The notes below the pieces were generated by a model. The model did no database searches, was not told the origin of the DNA, and saw only the letters and a program-made list of their open reading frames with translations. Shown here piece by piece: positions 4,265 through 57,612 of a stretch of DNA of 64,000 nucleotides. The DNA comes from Burkholderiales bacterium (GTDB taxonomy: Bacteria > Pseudomonadota > Gammaproteobacteria > Burkholderiales > Casimicrobiaceae), in contig JANXNI010000057.1 of assembly GCA_025354165.1 (NCBI GenBank), positions 1 through 64,000 on the forward strand. Direction: 5' to 3'. The position numbers and the translations under genes were made by a program. Within the stretch, counting starts at the first letter, position 1. Each line of letters starts with the position of its first letter.

Positions 4265-4380
4265 CAGCTTTTTGCTGAAATGACGCGGAAACGGGGGCTA
4301 TACGCAGAAAAGCACATTTGTCGATAATCGGCGAATATTGCGATCTTCCCTTGTATAGTGGTGGTTTCAGTCAAAAGCTG
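4265..4380. repeat. 116-bp palindromic intergenic element, copy 1
   Basis: The ends read CAGCTTTTTGCTGAAA and, on the other strand, CAGCTTTTGACTGAAA (14 of 16 identical). GGGCTA is at offset 31-36, and the central TGTCGATA lies at the midpoint. The copy lies between the divergent glycosyltransferase and the Ala/Lys-rich gene. The remaining 184 bases to 4564 show no further feature apart from the downstream gene's ribosome-binding site. Confidence 0.85.
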
Positions 4381-12545: not shown

Positions 12546-13469
12546 CTACGTGACATTGTTGTGTACGGCTCGTTCGACCGCTCTGCGGAGTTCAATTTTT
12601 TCGCGTTTCTCTGCGAGATCGGCAGCTACGCCCGCTGCAATGACGCCGGGATGTTTACTACGAAGCGTCGATAGCCCAATCGGGCACGTGATACGAGCAA
12701 TCTCAGTGCCAGAAAATCCGCGCGCCGCGAAGCGCTTACCGAAGATCGCCGCTTTCGTTGCCGAGCCAATCAGACCGCAATAGGCCAGATCATCGCGCTT
12801 CAGGAGTTGGAGGCAAATTTCGAGATCAAGTGCGTGGGAATGCGTGAGAACCAGCACGTCGGCACCAGCGGGTATGTGGTGCACTTCGCTGGCAGGTTCG
12901 TCGGATTCGATGACGCGTACATTTTCAGGCGGCATCTTTGGAAATGCTGCATCGCGTGAGTCCACCCAGGTCACGCTGCAGGGCAGCGTCGATAGCACCG
13001 TTACCAGCGCTACGCCGACATGTCCCGCGCCAAACACCCAGATCGTCCACGGATCAAAGTGAATGGGTAGTTTGAGCGTATCGCCCGTATCAAGTTGCCG
13101 CTCGATTTGGTACGTGCCGCCGCGCGCTTCGATGGCGCGAAGATGCTGCAAACTTTCGCGATGGATCTCCGCAATCGGCAGAAACGCAACGTCGACCGAA
13201 CCGCCGCAACATTGACCGAGCGCCGGGCCGAGTGGAAAGTGCCTGCGCGTGGCTGTCGCCGCACCCAACGTAAGCAATTCACGCGCGACTTCGATGGAGC
13301 GAAGTTCGAGATGACCGCCACCGATAGTGCCCAGCGAGTGCGAGGGCGTGACGATCATCGTGGTGCCCGCTTCGCGCGGCACAGAACCAGCGGAGCGCGC
13401 GATGCATATCCAGACGGCGGGCTCCGAGCGGTCGAGCAAATCAAGAAGACAGGCACCGGGGGTCAACAT
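12546..13469 (-). CDS. xdhC: XdhC, xanthine dehydrogenase molybdenum-cofactor chaperone
   Basis: XdhC binds molybdenum cofactor, promotes its sulfuration and inserts it into the XdhB subunit. The 307-residue product has the XdhC/CoxI N-terminal domain (RSAGSVPREAGTTMIV, then GTIGGGHLE) and the C-terminal Rossmann-like domain (IWVFGAGHVGVALV, DVLVLTHSHALDLEIC, YCGLIGSATKAAIF, CPIGL). Start ATG 13469 is preferred over 13526, because the extra residues derive from a half copy of the GTAGGAGCG-type repeat at about 13484-13515. It is the third xdh gene, between xdhB and the transport genes. Confidence 0.93.
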   Translation of the reverse strand: MLTPGACLLDLLDRSEPAVWICIARSAGSVPREAGTTMIVTPSHSLGTIGGGHLELRSIEVARELLTLGAATATRRHFPLGPALGQCCGGSVDVAFLPIAEIHRESLQHLRAIEARGGTYQIERQLDTGDTLKLPIHFDPWTIWVFGAGHVGVALVTVLSTLPCSVTWVDSRDAAFPKMPPENVRVIESDEPASEVHHIPAGADVLVLTHSHALDLEICLQLLKRDDLAYCGLIGSATKAAIFGKRFAARGFSGTEIARITCPIGLSTLRSKHPGVIAAGVAADLAEKREKIELRRAVERAVHNNVT

Positions 13470-13549
13470 GTCACGCACGTTCTTGTAGGAGCGACGAGAG
13501 TCGCGAACAGGTGGCGATCGCAGCAACGCGAATTCTTCTATTCACCATA

Positions 13550-13588
13550 CCCCTCACCCTAACCCTCTCCCGCAAGGGGAGAGGGGAC
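13550..13588. repeat. CCCTCACCC-type palindromic repeat at the xdhB 3' end
   Basis: A dispersed palindrome with CCCCTC...GAGGGG arms around CCCGCAAGGG. Near-identical copies lie at 27427, 52699, 54322 and 55607. It supplies the last eight or so codons (VPSPLAGEG) and the stop codon of xdhB. Confidence 0.85.
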
Positions 13589-18550: not shown

Positions 18551-18778
18551 ATGAACCCATTGCTTTATCTGTTCGAGCTCGTCAATCTCGTCGTAGGCAC
18601 TGGCGCTTTCTTCATCGCTGGCATTCCGGCGGCGGCCTGGCCGACGACCGCATTCTGCCATCAGCTTTTCTCTGTAAGTACGCTTTCAATTGGGCTAGAA
18701 GCCAATTGCGGCAAAAGTCGAGTTTTGCAGTTTCTGACCGTCAGCCCCAATGCAATAGCCATTTCAGAAAAAAGCTGA
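18551..18778 (+). pseudogene. Small membrane ORF whose 3' half is the palindromic element
   Basis: ATG 18551 opens a frame with a hydrophobic segment (MNPLLYLFELVNLVVGTGAF...). From 18662 it is encoded by the 116-bp repeat, including the stop codon TGA at 18776-18778. The first 37 residues look like a real membrane helix, so the element may have inserted into and truncated a small gene. A weak GAGGTG lies upstream. No continuation was recognisable beyond the repeat. Alternatively the ORF is spurious. Confidence 0.35.
18662..18777. repeat. 116-bp palindromic intergenic element, copy 2
   Basis: The ends are CAGCTTTTCTCTGTAA and, inverted, CAGCTTTTTTCTGAAA (14 of 16 identical). GGGCTA is at offset 31-36, CAGCCCC near 81, and AAAGTCGA ends at offset 60. 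No target-site duplication is visible at the edges. Confidence 0.9.
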
Positions 18779-22307: not shown

Positions 22308-22424
22308 CAACTTTTATTTGGCGTCCTTGTTTTATAAGGGCTGGTGGCTATTTTTGGCAAAAGTCGACTTGCTCAAGTTCTCGCAGTTAGCCGCGGCGCA
22401 TCCGAAGAAATTCCGTAAAAGCTG
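22308..22424. repeat. 116-bp-type palindromic element, copy 3 (117 bp)
   Basis: A more diverged copy with ends CAACTTTT and AAAAGCTG. AAGGGCT lies at offset 29-35, AAAAGTCGAC spans the midpoint, and TTAGCC is near offset 80. It lies between convergent purC and the OGT-like gene and could act as a bidirectional transcript end. Confidence 0.8.
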
Positions 22425-27345: not shown

Positions 27346-27464
27346 ACCCCCTCTTCCTTGACGGGAGGGTTGGGGTGAGGGTGACGGGTTGCTTGGAGAT
27401 CAAATGTGACTGGGAGTGGCACGTAACCCCTCACCCTAGCCCTCTCTCGCAAGGGGAGAGGGGA
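27346..27464. repeat. Two inverted CCCTCACCC-type repeats between fadI and fadJ
   Basis: 27427-27464 is a full palindromic copy (CCCCTCACCCTAGCCC...GAGGGG). 27346-27388 is a diverged copy in the opposite orientation (CCCCTCTTCC, then GGTTGGGGTGAGGGTGACGG). They occupy most of the gap between two co-directional operon genes and could fold in the mRNA. Confidence 0.8.
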
Positions 27465-28763
27465 CTATGCGGCTTCCACCAGCATTGCGCCGCCTTGTCC
27501 GCCACCAATACAAATCGTCGCGAGCGCCCGTTTGCCGCCCGTGCGTTTAAGCACATTGAGAGCGTGGAGCACGATGCGCGCGCCCGACGCGCCGACCGGA
27601 TGGCCAAGCGCAACCGCGCCGCCATCGACGTTTAATTTATTCATGTCAATCGAACCCATCGCGCCGTCAAGACCCAACTCTTCCTTACAGAATTTATCGT
27701 CTTCCCACGCCAGTTTGCAGGCGAGCACCTGCGCGGCGAAGGCTTCGTTGATTTCGATGGTGTCGAGATCATTGAGCGTGAGACCGTTGCGCGTCAGGAT
27801 CGGTGTCGAGGCGTAGACCGGACCCAGACCCATCTGCGCTGGATCACAACCCGCCCATTGCGTGTCGACGATTTTGCCGAGTACGGGCAGGTTATGTTTC
27901 TCAACGGCGGCTTTGGTCGCGAGCACCAGCCACGCGCCGCCATCGGTAATTTGCGAGCTGTTCCCAGCCGTGACGTTGCCGTATTTCTTGTCGAAGAAGG
28001 GCTTCAGTTTGGCGAGCTTTTCTGGCGTTGAATCGGCGCGTGCGCCGTCGTCATCGTTGTAGACATTGCCCTTGTCGTCGATCAACGGAATCACTTCACC
28101 TTTGTAGGCACCTGCGGCCTGCGCAGCGAGCACTCGCTTGTGGCTCTCGGCCGCGAACGCATCCATCTCGGTGCGCGTGATGCCGAAGCGAAACGCAATG
28201 TTCTCGGCGGTCTGGCCCATGAGCAACCCAACCTTGGGATCGGTCAAACCTTTCATTAACGCGATGACGGGCGAGAGCAAAGCCGTTGGCGACAATTTCG
28301 CAAACGTGCCGATCTTCTGGCCCATCGTCTTTGCGCTGGCGAGCGCGGCGAACCACAGCACCATTGGCTTCGAATACAGGAGCGGCGCGTGCGATAACGC
28401 ATCGACACCACCCGCAAGCACCAGCTCCGAGCGCCCAGCGAGCATGTTGTTGATGGCAGAGTCGAGCGCCTGCATGCCGCTGGCGCAGTTCCGCATCACG
28501 GTCCAGCCGGTGACTTTGTCGCCGCAGCCGAGACGCATGGCCACGTAACGACCGATGTTCACTTCATCCGGCGATGGATTGGCACAGCCGAGGATCACCT
28601 CGTCGAACTGCGTCGGTTCAATCGGCAGGCGCGAAATCAGGACGCGACCTGCTGCGACCGACAAATCGGAAGCCGAAAACGGGCCCGGTGCGTTGCGTGC
28701 TTTCAGGAACGGTGTGCGTGCGCCGTCAACGACATAGATGGGTTCACGAAGGGCGGATGCCAT
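27465..28763 (-). CDS. fadI: Acetyl-CoA C-acyltransferase (3-ketoacyl-CoA thiolase, FadI type)
   Basis: The last step of the beta-oxidation cycle, releasing acetyl-CoA. The 432-residue protein has the nucleophilic Cys in MRNCASGMQALDSAI, the NEAFAAQVLA block, GHPVGASGARIVLHAL with the catalytic His, and the proton-donating Cys in ATICIGGGQGGAM. Its length agrees with FadI (about 436) rather than FadA (about 387), which pairs naturally with the FadJ-like downstream gene. The regulator gene ends 26 bases upstream. Confidence 0.95.
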   Translation of the reverse strand: MASALREPIYVVDGARTPFLKARNAPGPFSASDLSVAAGRVLISRLPIEPTQFDEVILGCANPSPDEVNIGRYVAMRLGCGDKVTGWTVMRNCASGMQALDSAINNMLAGRSELVLAGGVDALSHAPLLYSKPMVLWFAALASAKTMGQKIGTFAKLSPTALLSPVIALMKGLTDPKVGLLMGQTAENIAFRFGITRTEMDAFAAESHKRVLAAQAAGAYKGEVIPLIDDKGNVYNDDDGARADSTPEKLAKLKPFFDKKYGNVTAGNSSQITDGGAWLVLATKAAVEKHNLPVLGKIVDTQWAGCDPAQMGLGPVYASTPILTRNGLTLNDLDTIEINEAFAAQVLACKLAWEDDKFCKEELGLDGAMGSIDMNKLNVDGGAVALGHPVGASGARIVLHALNVLKRTGGKRALATICIGGGQGGAMLVEAA

Positions 28764-29706: not shown

Positions 29707-29822
29707 CAGCTTTTCGCTGAAATGACGTATGAATAAGGGGTAACACTGATTTTTACAGATAGTCGATAAACAGCTATTTTGCCGGTCAGCCCTTATAAAA
29801 CGGTTAATTCATGAAAATGCTG
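29707..29822. repeat. 116-bp palindromic intergenic element, copy 4
   Basis: It starts CAGCTTTTCGCTGAAATGAC (the first 20 bases nearly identical to copy 1) and ends ATGAAAATGCTG. AAGGGGTAA is at offset 29-37, TAGTCGATA is central, and TCAGCCCTTAT is near offset 80. It lies between divergent psrA and the RHH gene. The neighbouring 29625-29665 also has an inverted pair CGCCTAG/CTAGGCG. Confidence 0.88.
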
Positions 29823-39456: not shown

Positions 39457-39504
39457 TGGCTGCAAGCGCTTCGTGTGATGATTATTTTCATGTTCGAAGA
39501 CATA

Positions 39505-39620
39505 TAGCTTTTCGCCAAAAGCACCCCTGAAAGCGGGCAAACAGCCGAAAAATAGAACAGTCGACTTTCCATGAAAATACGACTTAGCCCCAGTGCAGCA
39601 TACGATTCATGAAAAAGCTG
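39505..39620. repeat. 116-bp palindromic intergenic element, copy 5
   Basis: The clearest centre: AACAGTCGACTTT spans the exact midpoint with GTCGAC at offset 56-61. The ends are TAGCTTTT and AAAAGCTG, with AGCGGGC at offset 28-34 and TTAGCCCC near offset 80. It separates pyrF from prmC on the leftward transcript. Confidence 0.9.
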
Positions 39621-39638
39621 TAGGACTCAGAGCCAGCG

Positions 39639-52466: not shown

Positions 52467-52582
52467 CAGCTTTTTGATGAAAGCACTATTACATAGGGGC
52501 TGTACGCGCATTTAGACTTAACTCGATAAATAGCGTTTTACGAATCTAGCCCCGGTGAAGAATGGGTTTCATAGAAAAGCTG
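52467..52582. repeat. 116-bp palindromic intergenic element, copy 6
   Basis: The ends are CAGCTTTTTGATGAAA and GTTTCATAGAAAAGCTG. TAGGGGCTG is at offset 29-37, ACTCGATA is at the centre, and TCTAGCCCCG is near offset 79. It lies 38 bases after the pbpC stop. Confidence 0.88.
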
Positions 52583-52636
52583 ATTGCTATGTTCAGACGC
52601 AAAATGTCCCACTGCAATCAAGTTATCGAACCACAG

Positions 52637-52737
52637 CAACGCCGCCATTCTCGGCGCAGCCGGGAATCCAGTTCGTAAACCACGCGAAGCGCAAATCAGT
52701 CCCCTCTCCCCTTGCGGGAGAGGGTTAGGGTGACGGG
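52637..52737. repeat. Outer left repeat of nested inverted pair (R2)
   Basis: Contains CATTCTCGGCGCAGCCGGGA, then ATCCAG, GCGAAGCGCAAATCAGTCC and a CCCTCACCC-type palindrome. The same three blocks occur in reverse complement and mirrored order at 54321-54426, on the other side of the orphan gene. The 89 bases before the inner repeat include the hairpin TTTTGGCATTGCCCAAAA (52796-52813). Confidence 0.88.
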
Positions 52738-52826
52738 TTTGGTGGAGTGAGGTGGTTCGTATGCCACAGCCTCATTTCGCCTGAAGGCGAGTCACTTTTG
52801 GCATTGCCCAAAAGTGACCAAAAGGG

Positions 52827-52980
52827 TAGCCCCTACTGCCCGCCTGATCCTCCAGTGCTCGCGTTGTGCGGGACGCGTCGAACGGCAAACGAATGCTTCG
52901 CTATCGCTACGCAGAGTGTGTGCTAGAGGCCGCTTCTACGACCGCACAACACTGCGCGCTTCGGGGCGGGCAGAAGGGGC
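52827..52980. repeat. Inner left repeat of nested inverted pair (R1, 154 bp)
   Basis: Runs from TAGCCCCTACTGCCCGCCTG to the residues GCAGAAGGGGC. Its reverse complement recurs at 53995-54147 with roughly 90% identity by eye. The block encodes spurious ORFs on the plus strand (CAGRVERQTNASLSLRRV type), which should not be annotated as genes. Confidence 0.92.
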
Positions 52981-52987
52981 AATCCGC

Positions 52988-53899
52988 TCAGTTGACGGGT
53001 AGCTTCCTTAGGTATTCTTTAAAGAGATGCTTGTCATCATCTCGACGTATGAATACTTCGAGCGGCTTAAGATTTGACTGCGTTAGGAGCCTGCGCGCAA
53101 TATTGACAATTTCTTCAACGCGATCCAGATTCCGATCCAATGCGGATGTCCACTTCACCCACTTTCGAAGCTCGTCAAAGGACATCAAGTCGACATCTTC
53201 AGTTTCAAATTTACTTAGAGGCTCTTCCAGTTCCTTAACGAGCAGGACATGCAAGTCGTTCTCAGGAAACAACGCGTCCAAACCATCTAAGTTAGCTACG
53301 GGTTCCTCGATGTAGTGTGGCCGAGGTAACGTCGTGTCGTTGAACGCCTCAAGGCGCTGCACTTCATCCTCAGTGGCTTGTCGACTAATCGTAATGGCAG
53401 AGATCCTTGTTTTGATCATCCTCAAAATATTCGTTACGACTGGTTCGGGACATCCTGAAGATAGTACGCGCAACGGTCGCATAAGAGCTTGAATTCGCTT
53501 TGCGCCTAGTTCCCCCTCACGGCTCGAAGAGATTCGGGCTCGAATCTCTTCGAGTCGAAAGGAAAACGTTACAAGTAATTCACGATTGTTCTTCTCGGAA
53601 ATGTCGCGATCCAATTTTCGGGACAATGTCTCAAAGTCAACGCCGAAATACTTTTTGCCACAGTCGCGCCCTATGTTGGTTTCCAGACCATCGGTGGTGA
53701 GTACCAAATAACCTTTTCCATGCGGCGTATGACACTCCGACAATCCGCAGTTGACGGTATCTCTGAACATGTAGCGGCCAAGAATAGCTTTGAGCGAATG
53801 CGCCTGCGCATTTAGGTTGTTAACGAAACCCGGACGGCTAACAACGTCATCCCACGTTTCGATATTAACGAGACCTTTGTCAGAATTTATTGTGATCAT
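52988..53899 (-). CDS. Orphan accessory protein with Cys/His putative zinc site
   Basis: I do not recognise the family. Start ATG 53899 gives 303 residues; TTG 53908 is the only earlier choice. Residues C51, C56, H57, H60 and C80 lie in CGLSECHTPHGKGYLVLTTD and NIGRDCGKKYFG, a spacing that could bind zinc, preceded by a short helical region. The rest is helical and charged (about 90-200 and 230-303), with acidic clusters, and has no signal peptide or membrane span. Base composition looks clearly more AT-rich than neighbouring genes. It is the only gene between the mirrored repeats 52637-52980 and 53995-54426, between core genes pbpC and ftsY. Horizontal acquisition is likely; a defence or nucleic-acid role is only a guess. 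Confidence 0.75.
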   Translation of the reverse strand: MITINSDKGLVNIETWDDVVSRPGFVNNLNAQAHSLKAILGRYMFRDTVNCGLSECHTPHGKGYLVLTTDGLETNIGRDCGKKYFGVDFETLSRKLDRDISEKNNRELLVTFSFRLEEIRARISSSREGELGAKRIQALMRPLRVLSSGCPEPVVTNILRMIKTRISAITISRQATEDEVQRLEAFNDTTLPRPHYIEEPVANLDGLDALFPENDLHVLLVKELEEPLSKFETEDVDLMSFDELRKWVKWTSALDRNLDRVEEIVNIARRLLTQSNLKPLEVFIRRDDDKHLFKEYLRKLPVN

Positions 53900-53994
53900 G
53901 TGTCGCAACTACCATGCAAGACGTCGAAGCCTGATTGTATAGAGCGGCTGTTTTTACATACAGCCTACTATCTCCGCGCGAAGTCCGAGTTAAC

Positions 53995-54147
53995 GCCCCT
54001 TTTGCCCGCCCCGAAGCGCGCAGTGTTGTGCGGTCGTAGATGCGTCGTCGGCACACACTCTGCGTAGCGATAGCGAAGCTTTCGTGTGCCGTTCGACGCG
54101 TCCCGCACAACGCGAGCACTGGAGGATCAGGCGGGCAGTAGGGGCTA
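53995..54147. repeat. Inner right repeat of nested inverted pair (R1)
   Basis: Reverse complement of 52827-52980 with scattered substitutions. It begins 96 bases ahead of the orphan gene's start codon, so it lies in the upstream region of that gene. A hairpin TTTCTGGCAATGCCAGAAA (54162-54180) follows, mirroring the hairpin outside the left copy with a different stem sequence. Confidence 0.92.
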
Positions 54148-54320
54148 GCCTCTTTGCCTACTTTCTGGGCAATGCCAGAAAGTAGGTCGCCCCGCGCGGC
54201 GACAGAGCGCGTTGGTGGTGTGTGAATCCACGTTTGTTCTTCTATTCGTGTTCATGGTTCGACGGGCTCACCACGAACGGCGAATTGGTTCTTCAATCCA
54301 TGCTGCAATCGGACGCAACC

Positions 54321-54426
54321 GACCCCTCACCCTAACCCTCTCCCGCAAGGGGCGAGGGGACTGATTTGCGCTTCGCGGGGACTACGCGCTGGATTCCCGG
54401 CTGCGCCGAGAATGACGGCGTTGTTG
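54321..54426. repeat. Outer right repeat of nested inverted pair (R2)
   Basis: Mirror copy of 52637-52737: a CCCTCACCC-type palindrome, CTGATTTGCGCTTCGCG, then CTGGATTCCCGGCTGCGCCG and AGAATGACGGCG. About 173 bases of unshared sequence (54148-54320) separate it from the inner repeat, against 89 on the left. The remaining 55 bases to the ftsY stop are GGTGG/GTGGC-rich and featureless. Confidence 0.88.
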
Positions 54427-55525: not shown

Positions 55526-55606
55526 GGAGCGCTTTCTTACGGGATTCGAGACAATTGCATTTTAGGCGGCAGTGCTCACGGCGAGCGTTGCTCTTTATCT
55601 ACGATA

Positions 55607-55645
55607 CCCCTCACCCTAACCCTCTCCCGCAAGGGGAGAGGGGAC
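55607..55645. repeat. CCCTCACCC-type palindromic repeat in front of rsmD
   Basis: A full copy ending GGGGAGAGGGGAC seven bases ahead of the rsmD ATG. Its purine-rich right arm is the only Shine-Dalgarno-like sequence available for rsmD. Confidence 0.85.
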
Positions 55646-57496: not shown

Positions 57497-57612
57497 CAGC
57501 TTTTCGCTGATAGCTTCAGTGCATAAGGGCTAACGCCTGAAAACGTAGCTAGTCGATTTTTAGGTTTTTGTGTGATTGGTCCCAATGCAGCATGGGCTGT
57601 AGCCAAAAGCCG
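57497..57612. repeat. 116-bp palindromic intergenic element, copy 7
   Basis: The ends are CAGCTTTTCGCTGATA and TAGCCAAAAGCCG. ATAAGGGCTAACG is at offset 27-39, CTAGTCGATT is central, and TGGTCCCAATGCAGCATGGG is at 81-100. It lies in the 151-base gap between the HbpS-like and MAPEG genes. Confidence 0.88.

Follow-up and report, generated by a model that had tools for sequence, protein, structure and literature searches.

A two-fold symmetric 116-bp intergenic element recurring along a Casimicrobiaceae chromosome is a candidate docking site for a chromosome-organizing protein

Between prmC and pyrF, a Burkholderiales bacterium of the Casimicrobiaceae carries a 116-bp palindromic element that recurs in six other places of the stretch analyzed here (64,000 nt in full, referred to as the window), which raises the question of what kind of chromosomal site it represents. 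A reading of the sequence alone had located seven copies, and all of them were recovered in the same places, six being 116 bp long and the one at 22308 measuring 117 bp. Scored with a covariance model of the seven copies or with a profile of 43 copies (no strand is assigned to any of the features), they lie at 4265..4380 (in a divergent gene pair; 97.5 bits with the covariance model and 69.7 bits with the 43-copy profile), 18662..18777 (116 bp; 104.8 and 81.8 bits, respectively), 22308..22424 (117 bp; 34.7 bits with the 43-copy profile, only one half being detected by a half-site profile), 29707..29822 (116 bp; 97.4 bits with the covariance model), 39505..39620 (the copy between prmC and pyrF; 94.1 bits with the covariance model), 52467..52582 (116 bp; 104.9 bits), and 57497..57612 (116 bp; 96.5 bits). 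Orthologous copies were found in relatives for the one at 39505, in genome G001 for the one at 52467, and in G001, G005, G006, and G012 for the one at 57497. A pattern of fixed spacing that combines the ends with the inner pair and allows at most three mismatches matched six of the seven, all except the copy at 22308, and gave no match in 100 dinucleotide-preserving shuffles.

The ends CAGCTTTT/AAAAGCTG, which had been attributed to all copies, are exact in three of them (4265, 18662, and 52467) and carry one substitution in the other four. Likewise, the GGGCTA/TAGCCC pair stands as a consensus but is not invariant across the copies, and the two-fold symmetry ascribed to the whole unit is a property of the consensus, one half of the 22308 copy being degraded. 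TCGA occupies the dyad in all seven window copies, as had been reported, and all seven are intergenic, provided that the start of prmC near the copy at 39505 is over-long. As called, the prmC ORF overlaps this copy by 36 bp; we regard this as an over-long start call, because in 14 of 16 relatives the alignment to prmC begins no earlier than residue 23. The sequence-only reading had been unable to name a published family, and no Rfam family reached the gathering threshold in the window. Where it had put the frequency at about one copy per 8 kb, we obtained approximately one per 9 kb for the window and, from a contiguous sample of larger size, one per 10.6 kb.

The window also contains other repeats. 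A perfect 102-nt inverted repeat with arms at 1-102 and 140-241 occupies positions 1-241, at the start of the contig, and is possibly an assembly artefact. Nested long inverted repeats (arms of 105, 104, and 55 nt, 91-96% complementary) surround approximately 1 kb at 52634-54426, where the two ORFs tested had no Pfam matches. A second, unrelated dispersed repeat of the form CCCCTCACCCTAACCCTCTCCC...GGGGAGAGGGG is located at 13539-13588, 27416-27465, 54312-54361, and 55596-55645; its copies share 82-94% identity with the reference copy, it is stem-loop-like, and it has many matches in relatives.

How far the 116-bp family extends was addressed in the own genome (G000; 4.72 Mb in 97 contigs). 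The half-pattern CAGCTTTT-N(15-30)-GGGCTA matched 168 times in this genome, with nearly constant spacing among the matches listed, as compared with a single match of the reversed pattern used as control. The seven-copy covariance model yielded at least 150 matches (150 of 1370 candidates were scored, and some places appear on both strands), nearly all of exactly 116 bp. The description as a fixed-length palindromic intergenic family is thus borne out, with many more copies genome-wide. For a contiguous count, 643,821 bases (contigs C72 and C4 as a whole and positions 1-84000 of C8) were searched with the 43-copy profile. This sample holds 61 elements, i.e., one per 10.6 kb, which extrapolates to ~447 (about 450) copies per genome. 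Fifty-six of the 61 score above 42 bits and five at 32-35 bits (the weakest at 32.5), while the next match reaches 8.4 bits and the best match in the reversed-sequence control 8.8 bits. A part of the 43 training copies came from the sampled contigs; for the 29 elements located beyond the training stretches, scores range from 32.5 to 76.4 bits. The elements are clearly set apart from noise by their scores and show little decay. Pairwise identity among 64 copies averages 55%, with a maximum of 70%.

What is held constant in these copies becomes apparent from their anatomy. In the copy between prmC and pyrF, the conservation profile delimits a left outer block at 39503..39520 (consensus AW-CAGCTTTT..cTGAAA, positions -2 to 16), a left inner block at 39535..39540 (consensus GGGCTA, positions 31-36), a left A/T tract at 39548..39551 (positions 44-47), the dyad centre TCGA at 39561..39564 (positions 57-60), a right inner block at 39585..39590 (TAGCCC, positions 81-86), and a right outer block at 39605..39622 (TTTCA..AAAAGCTG-WT). 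Read from the outside inward, each half consists of AW-CAGCTTTT, TGAAA (12-16), a T at 24, an A at 27, GGGCT(A) at 31-36, the A/T tract at 44-47, A or T at 54-55, and TC/GA divided by the dyad. The core unit measures 116 bp and conservation extends to ~120 bp, the two bases just outside the core being A/T-biased. Positions 45-46 are almost never G or C, and A and T are about equally frequent there, mostly as AAA or TTT, which suggests shape readout. Over the 84 copies of exactly 116 bp, the unit contains ~93 bits of information. Its length is rigid, with exactly 116 bp in 49 of the 61 copies of the contiguous sample; the copies in G005 mostly measure 117-118 bp (15 of 22). The A/T content peaks near positions 6, 15, 25, 36, 45, and 54, and its best period is 9.5 bp (permutation P 0.0025, against a null that shuffles single positions and ignores local correlation), with low power at 10.5 bp. 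As the period is 9.5 and not 10.5 bp, helical phasing or wrapping of the DNA is only suggestive.

A palindrome of this size could act as a folded single strand or as double-stranded DNA. The sequence-only reading had likened the element to ERIC, and this comparison with a stem-forming repeat did not survive, since the halves vary independently and their pairs do not covary. The check set beforehand, a search for compensating base changes across the dyad, found none: matched half positions amounted to 2675 of 4872 in 84 copies versus 2645±28 with the halves permuted (P 0.15), and to 1363 versus 1371 in the first 43 copies. In the 25 most variable columns of the 84 copies, 722 matched halves were counted versus 685±21 expected (P 0.05), a weak excess that is a trace at most. 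Mutual information over 128 halves revealed no base-pair signal within the halves either; the strongest couplings were those of neighbouring bases (45-46 as AA/TT, 55-56, 19-20, and 22-23). Because a change in one half is not matched in the opposite half, the palindrome does not work by self-pairing, and hairpin or RNA stems, including those of REPIN type, were ruled out by the lack of covariation (43, then 84 copies; 128 halves). This negative result removes the hairpin and RNA reading and leaves the element itself in place. With halves that vary independently, the element behaves as a double-stranded protein-binding site and not as a hairpin, RNA, or REPIN, and its symmetry would come from a putative two-fold symmetric partner that reads the double-stranded DNA twice.

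The same data bear on a transcribed RNA structure, such as a bidirectional terminator, a stabilizer of mRNA 3' ends, or an attenuator. Five of the seven window copies do fold well as RNA (z < -2.7), and the elements are situated close to gene 3' ends, with a higher frequency between convergent genes. However, good folding is a by-product to be expected because the consensus is symmetric, the dyad stem is refuted by the absent compensatory change, and no pairing signal exists within the halves. Moreover, the ends read AAAAGCTG and not a T run, copies occur between divergent genes as well, and Rfam returned no matches. We regard a function as transcribed RNA as highly improbable.

Comparison with relatives adds vertical inheritance in place, species dialects, and an over-even spacing to the original description, which was correct but had captured a smaller family. 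A model of the own type identified elements in 9 of 17 genus genomes (with one match in G007 and three in G009) and in none of 23 genomes of other genera. A search of the order (399 genomes) for perfect ends with the correct separation gave matches in four, namely G000 (90), G005 (27), G009 (1), and, outside the genus, G203 (1); in the part shown of the single G203 match, the inner blocks are absent. Several apparent negatives of the genus carry the element in another dialect, i.e., in the same layout with other words. In G013, G003, and G008 the inner blocks are of the GGTCGTT type, G014 has GGCGTCCATGACGGGCTT, and in G002 and G011 GCC...GGC inner dyads are kept while the TCGA centre is not conserved. 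The profiles for these dialects were iterated on small samples, and the equal element lengths that they return are imposed by the model. Leave-one-out tests confirmed every member in G013 (5 of 5, the reversed control reaching up to 12.2 bits), in G003/G008 (4 of 4, including one orthologous pair), in G014 (6 of 6, including a pair that resembles a local duplication), and in G010 (9 of 9). In G002, 10 of 12 members were confirmed, with E ≤ 0.01, and in G011 5 of 6. No dialect is claimed for G007, because none of its four candidates passed this test. Some members lie wholly or nearly inside called ORFs (3 of 6 in G014, 1 of 12 in G002, 1 of 6 in G011, and 2 of 9 in G010). The dialect profiles had no matches in ~247 kb of seven other genomes of the family or in the stretches searched of G016, whereas the same search recovered G010; G015 was sampled at one locus only. 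By the own-type, end-pattern, and dialect-profile searches, the element is found in one genus only. Viral contigs had no matches to a 21-base pattern of the own dialect, and plasmids none to one copy used as blastn query. A generic scan for symmetry by self-complementary positions was discarded, as controls scored at least as high as element-bearing loci, a failure that we put down to coding-phase background.

Two of these loci deserve separate mention. The sole own-type match of G007 (L196:9854-9969) adjoins a gene for a 905-aa protein with an HSDR_N domain and may be located on horizontally acquired DNA that retained the dialect of its donor. In G014, two similar copies at L204:11952-12072 and 12699-12819, ~750 bp apart, apparently arose by local duplication.

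Whether the copies were inherited in place was assessed at orthologous loci. Empty sites in relatives, which the sequence-only reading had proposed to look for, were not seen: all 15 alignable intervals of the same dialect (for seven loci of the own genome, in G001, G004, G005, G006, and G012) hold the element. With one locus left out, as the length of its own copy differs from 116 bp, 13 ortholog pairs were compared. Their constrained columns agree at 403 of 482 positions (0.84, the same value as for paralogs in one genome) and their free columns at 256 of 529 (0.48 versus 0.31 between unrelated copies). Since agreement in the free columns exceeds that of paralogs and the blocks are held, these are true orthologs in which the free positions have largely been lost. 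The element between prmC and pyrF was detected in 11 of 16 relatives overall. The profile of the own dialect located it in the same place in G001, G003, G004, G005, G006, G008, and G012 and weakly in G014 and G002 (16.2 and 15.2 bits). This profile had no match in the prmC-pyrF interval of G010 and G011, and the dialect profiles of G013 and G011 themselves identified the element in these two genomes. In G009 and G016, the gap at this site is merely short and the element is absent. Two own loci on C72 have counterparts in place in G013, which the own profile scores at 10.8 and 10.9 bits and which belong to the G013 set confirmed by leave-one-out. Thus, the dialect at a fixed locus can differ between species.

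These observations have to be weighed against an origin from old, now quiet mobile palindromes, either MITE- or ERIC-like or REPINs moved by a RAYT, which would have become fixed in the distant past and been co-opted in part as protein sites. The family does comprise hundreds of palindromic copies that are scattered between genes and have conserved inverted ends, as such an origin would leave behind, and RAYT-like genes (PF01797) are encoded in 15 of 17 genus genomes and absent where the element is rare or not found (G009 and G016). However, the only RAYT match of the own genome has an in-frame stop and its 3.2-kb locus lacks the element. A search for linkage to RAYT genes, which covered 8 of 44 RAYT matches (~22 kb) with the own-dialect profile only, gave two partial matches near background. 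The absence of a target duplication noted by the sequence-only reading holds for all 61 copies at 4-10 bp; shorter flank repeats occur in 13 of 61 copies for 2 bp (10.2 expected) and in 1 of 61 for 3 bp (2.0 expected), and the A/T-rich 2 bp outside each end form no fixed TA duplication. Mobility is further contradicted by the lack of empty sites in the 15 same-dialect intervals, the lack of orphan half sites in 644 kb, the lack of near-identical recent copies (maximum identity 70% among 64), the little decay, the unpaired halves, and the over-even spacing. By most defining tests (hairpin, target duplication, empty sites, near-identical copies), the element is not a mobile palindrome, and we disfavour this reading as unlikely. 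Six elements have one detectable half (C72:223520, C4:159400, C4:172300, C72:82266, C72:71699, and the window copy at 22308); at C72:223520, the missing half ends in repeat sequence of the GCGGGAATC type. The PF01797 Y1 transposases missing from G009 and G016, two small genomes, may be tied to other repeats.

The positions of the elements on the chromosome were analyzed in the contiguous sample, of which 85% is coding. None of the 61 elements overlaps a called gene by more than 60 bp, and 11 overlap one by some bases. The 60 elements flanked by genes on both sides comprise 29 in tandem, 18 in convergent, and 13 in divergent context, whereas the available gaps of at least 95 bp number 122, 45, and 64, respectively. 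Convergent gaps are thus somewhat favoured (18/45, as compared with 29/122 for tandem and 13/64 for divergent gaps), and the median distance is 22 bp to gene 3' ends versus 89 bp to starts. This preference could reflect a role at transcription ends, or merely the room that promoters need. The distribution is chromosome-wide, with all orientations represented, and not bound to one gene context. Spacing is more even than for random intergenic gaps (CV 0.62 vs 0.91±0.12, P 0.001), and only 3 gaps between elements are shorter than 3 kb where 12.3 are expected (P 0.0002); this null relies on crude gene calls by codon usage. We prefer the contiguous test because the stretches of the first spacing test had partly been chosen for holding matches. 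In the complete genome of G005, 20 evenly placed 20-kb samples contain 0-3 elements each and at least one in 18 of 20, which is under-dispersed (index 0.40, p 0.009). Judged by eye from the translations, the two largest gaps without an element contain ordinary-looking genes and no island.

A conventional global regulon, in which the elements are the operators of one transcription factor over hundreds of genes, would agree with a symmetric, operator-like intergenic site that is conserved in place. However, it would not predict a preference for convergent gaps, a position nearer to 3' ends than to starts, or regular spacing, and the information in the element would be far above the need of a regulator, ~22 bits for a genome of 4.7 Mb. 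We therefore consider a regulon very unlikely.

Regular spacing and dialects would be better explained by a signal through which cells recognize their own DNA for uptake or transfer. Molecular drive (biased recombination) would keep and spread such a signal in place, as with DUS/USS, and no benefit to the chromosome would be needed. USS are evenly spaced. Drive might produce both the even spacing and the maintenance in place, and the species dialects mirror those of DUS, which are described as 10-12-mers with thousands of copies and species dialects (PMC3630211). The element, in contrast, spans ~120 bp and contains 93 bits, occurs once per 10.6 kb and between genes, and has a two-fold symmetry that would fit a nucleoprotein complex better than an uptake receptor. 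A signal maintained by drive is the rival that best accounts for dialects and even spacing, yet length and information content speak against it and make it an unlikely solution.

The dimensions of the element also recall a strong loading or cleavage site of gyrase (type II topoisomerase), in which the DNA would wrap to either side of a central 4-bp cut at TCGA. The Escherichia coli gyrase motif is reported to be degenerate and ~130 bp long, with phased G+C in its arms and symmetry around a 4-bp stagger (PMC6379681). The ~120 bp of the element, their symmetry about TCGA, and the A/T peaks would suit this reading. However, ~93 bits in base-specific blocks differ from a degenerate motif, and the A/T period is 9.5 bp and not 10.75 bp. 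Furthermore, the blocks change among relatives (GGGCTA versus GGTCGTT, and a TCGA that is not conserved in G002) while the GyrA repeats are unchanged where found: C-terminal GyrA repeats are present in 16 of 17 genus genomes, G009 and G016 included, usually six in each, and none were found in G014. To our knowledge, no species dialects are known for gyrase sites. A gyrase site appears decidedly unlikely on these grounds.

The observations that any reading has to accommodate are a single dyad-symmetric site of ~120 bp with its ends, TGAAA, GGGCTA, the A/T tract, and TCGA at rigid spacing, which lies between genes about once per 10 kb and keeps its blocks at orthologous loci while the unconstrained positions are largely randomized. 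From these we infer, with about even confidence, that the element is a chromosome-organizing docking site for a dedicated putative protein. The pattern would result from purifying selection for binding of the double-stranded DNA by this putative protein or protein set, which would probably be multi-domain or multi-dimer, contact both halves, and fold or wrap the ~11-turn site into a fixed nucleoprotein complex. Lineage-specific changes in the DNA-binding surface of the binder might then give rise to the dialects. Less firmly, its task may be chromosome architecture, i.e., the anchoring of loops or supercoil domains in a quasi-regular scaffold. Architecture is preferred over the control of particular genes because the sites occupy tandem, convergent, and divergent gaps at near-regular intervals; molecular drive can produce even spacing too. 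Taken to its full extent, the proposal is a scaffold of quasi-regular sites of ~120 bp (11 helical turns), one per ~10 kb, at which dedicated putative symmetric complexes would fix the boundaries of loops or supercoil domains, and whose ~450 copies per genome would be rewritten in place into dialects as the specificity of the putative protein drifts; we put this forward tentatively, as a possibility that is somewhat short of probable.

Candidates for the partner were sought among 17 genus genomes. KfrA_N, found in four of them, and GyrA showed no useful presence pattern. The ORF translations beside the G007 match and beside one of the three G009 matches, the 905-aa neighbour alone being scanned for domains, revealed no candidate binding protein.

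Where the boundaries of supercoil domains lie in bacteria is an open question, as is their encoding by DNA sequence. These boundaries are often treated as stochastic. If the proposal is true, the question could be put to a direct test in a genus with hundreds of explicit, evenly spaced sites maintained by selection, and the scaffold would represent a bacterial analogue of sequence-encoded insulators. The number of elements per genome would match the scale of the 400-500 supercoiled domains reported for E. coli (PMC3820752). Through the dialects, the coevolution of protein and DNA could be studied in a natural experiment that runs at hundreds of sites in parallel. Should the elements instead be drive signals or gyrase sites, we know of none of either kind that would be longer or richer in information.

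In the literature searched, with most subscription papers outside reach, no description of such an element was found. Among known systems, the REPIN and REP-BIME units associated with RAYTs in Pseudomonas and enterics are similar in that hundreds of symmetric units of several sequence types are dispersed extragenically. REPINs are, however, reported to form hairpins in which compensatory changes are common, and to possess two invariant 16-mers (PMC3116915), whereas the halves of the element do not covary and its copies are at most 70% alike and without invariant 16-mers. ERIC (30 to 711 copies according to PMC10969869) and other MITEs (Correia/NEMIS, RUP, BOX) resemble the element in size range, inverted ends, intergenic position, and copy number, but the element showed no target duplications, no empty sites in the intervals compared, and no orphan ends in 644 kb, and it exhibits little decay and even spacing; from ERIC, with its consensus of ~127 bp, it is set apart on the basis of these features. 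The betaproteobacterial repeat element BRE is also a mostly intergenic repeat of Betaproteobacteria, but differs in length, copy number, and tandem copies (~90 bp, up to 29 copies, and variable tandem copies are stated in PMC3110155), a distinction made by description only. DUS/USS share genome-wide occurrence and species dialects with the element, but DUS comprise 10-12 bp in thousands of copies. The E. coli gyrase motif and the strong gyrase site of Mu are alike in their ~130 bp, symmetry, 4-bp centre, and phased A/T content, the motif being degenerate and not of ~93 bits. The sequence-specific chromosome-organizing sites parS, matS, and KOPS have 8-16 bp and are clustered near ori or in ter, or are strand-polar; the likeness to them consists in the candidate organizing role, while the element is longer and evenly spread. 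Finally, the organizing protein CdbA is reported to occupy more than 500 sites in Myxococcus xanthus with a modest transcriptional effect (PMC7156744). Its sites are comparable as hundreds of chromosome-wide sites of an organizing protein, which for the element is putative, but they consist of a short direct-repeat motif of moderate specificity, with ~35% of the peaks being intergenic (PMC7156744).
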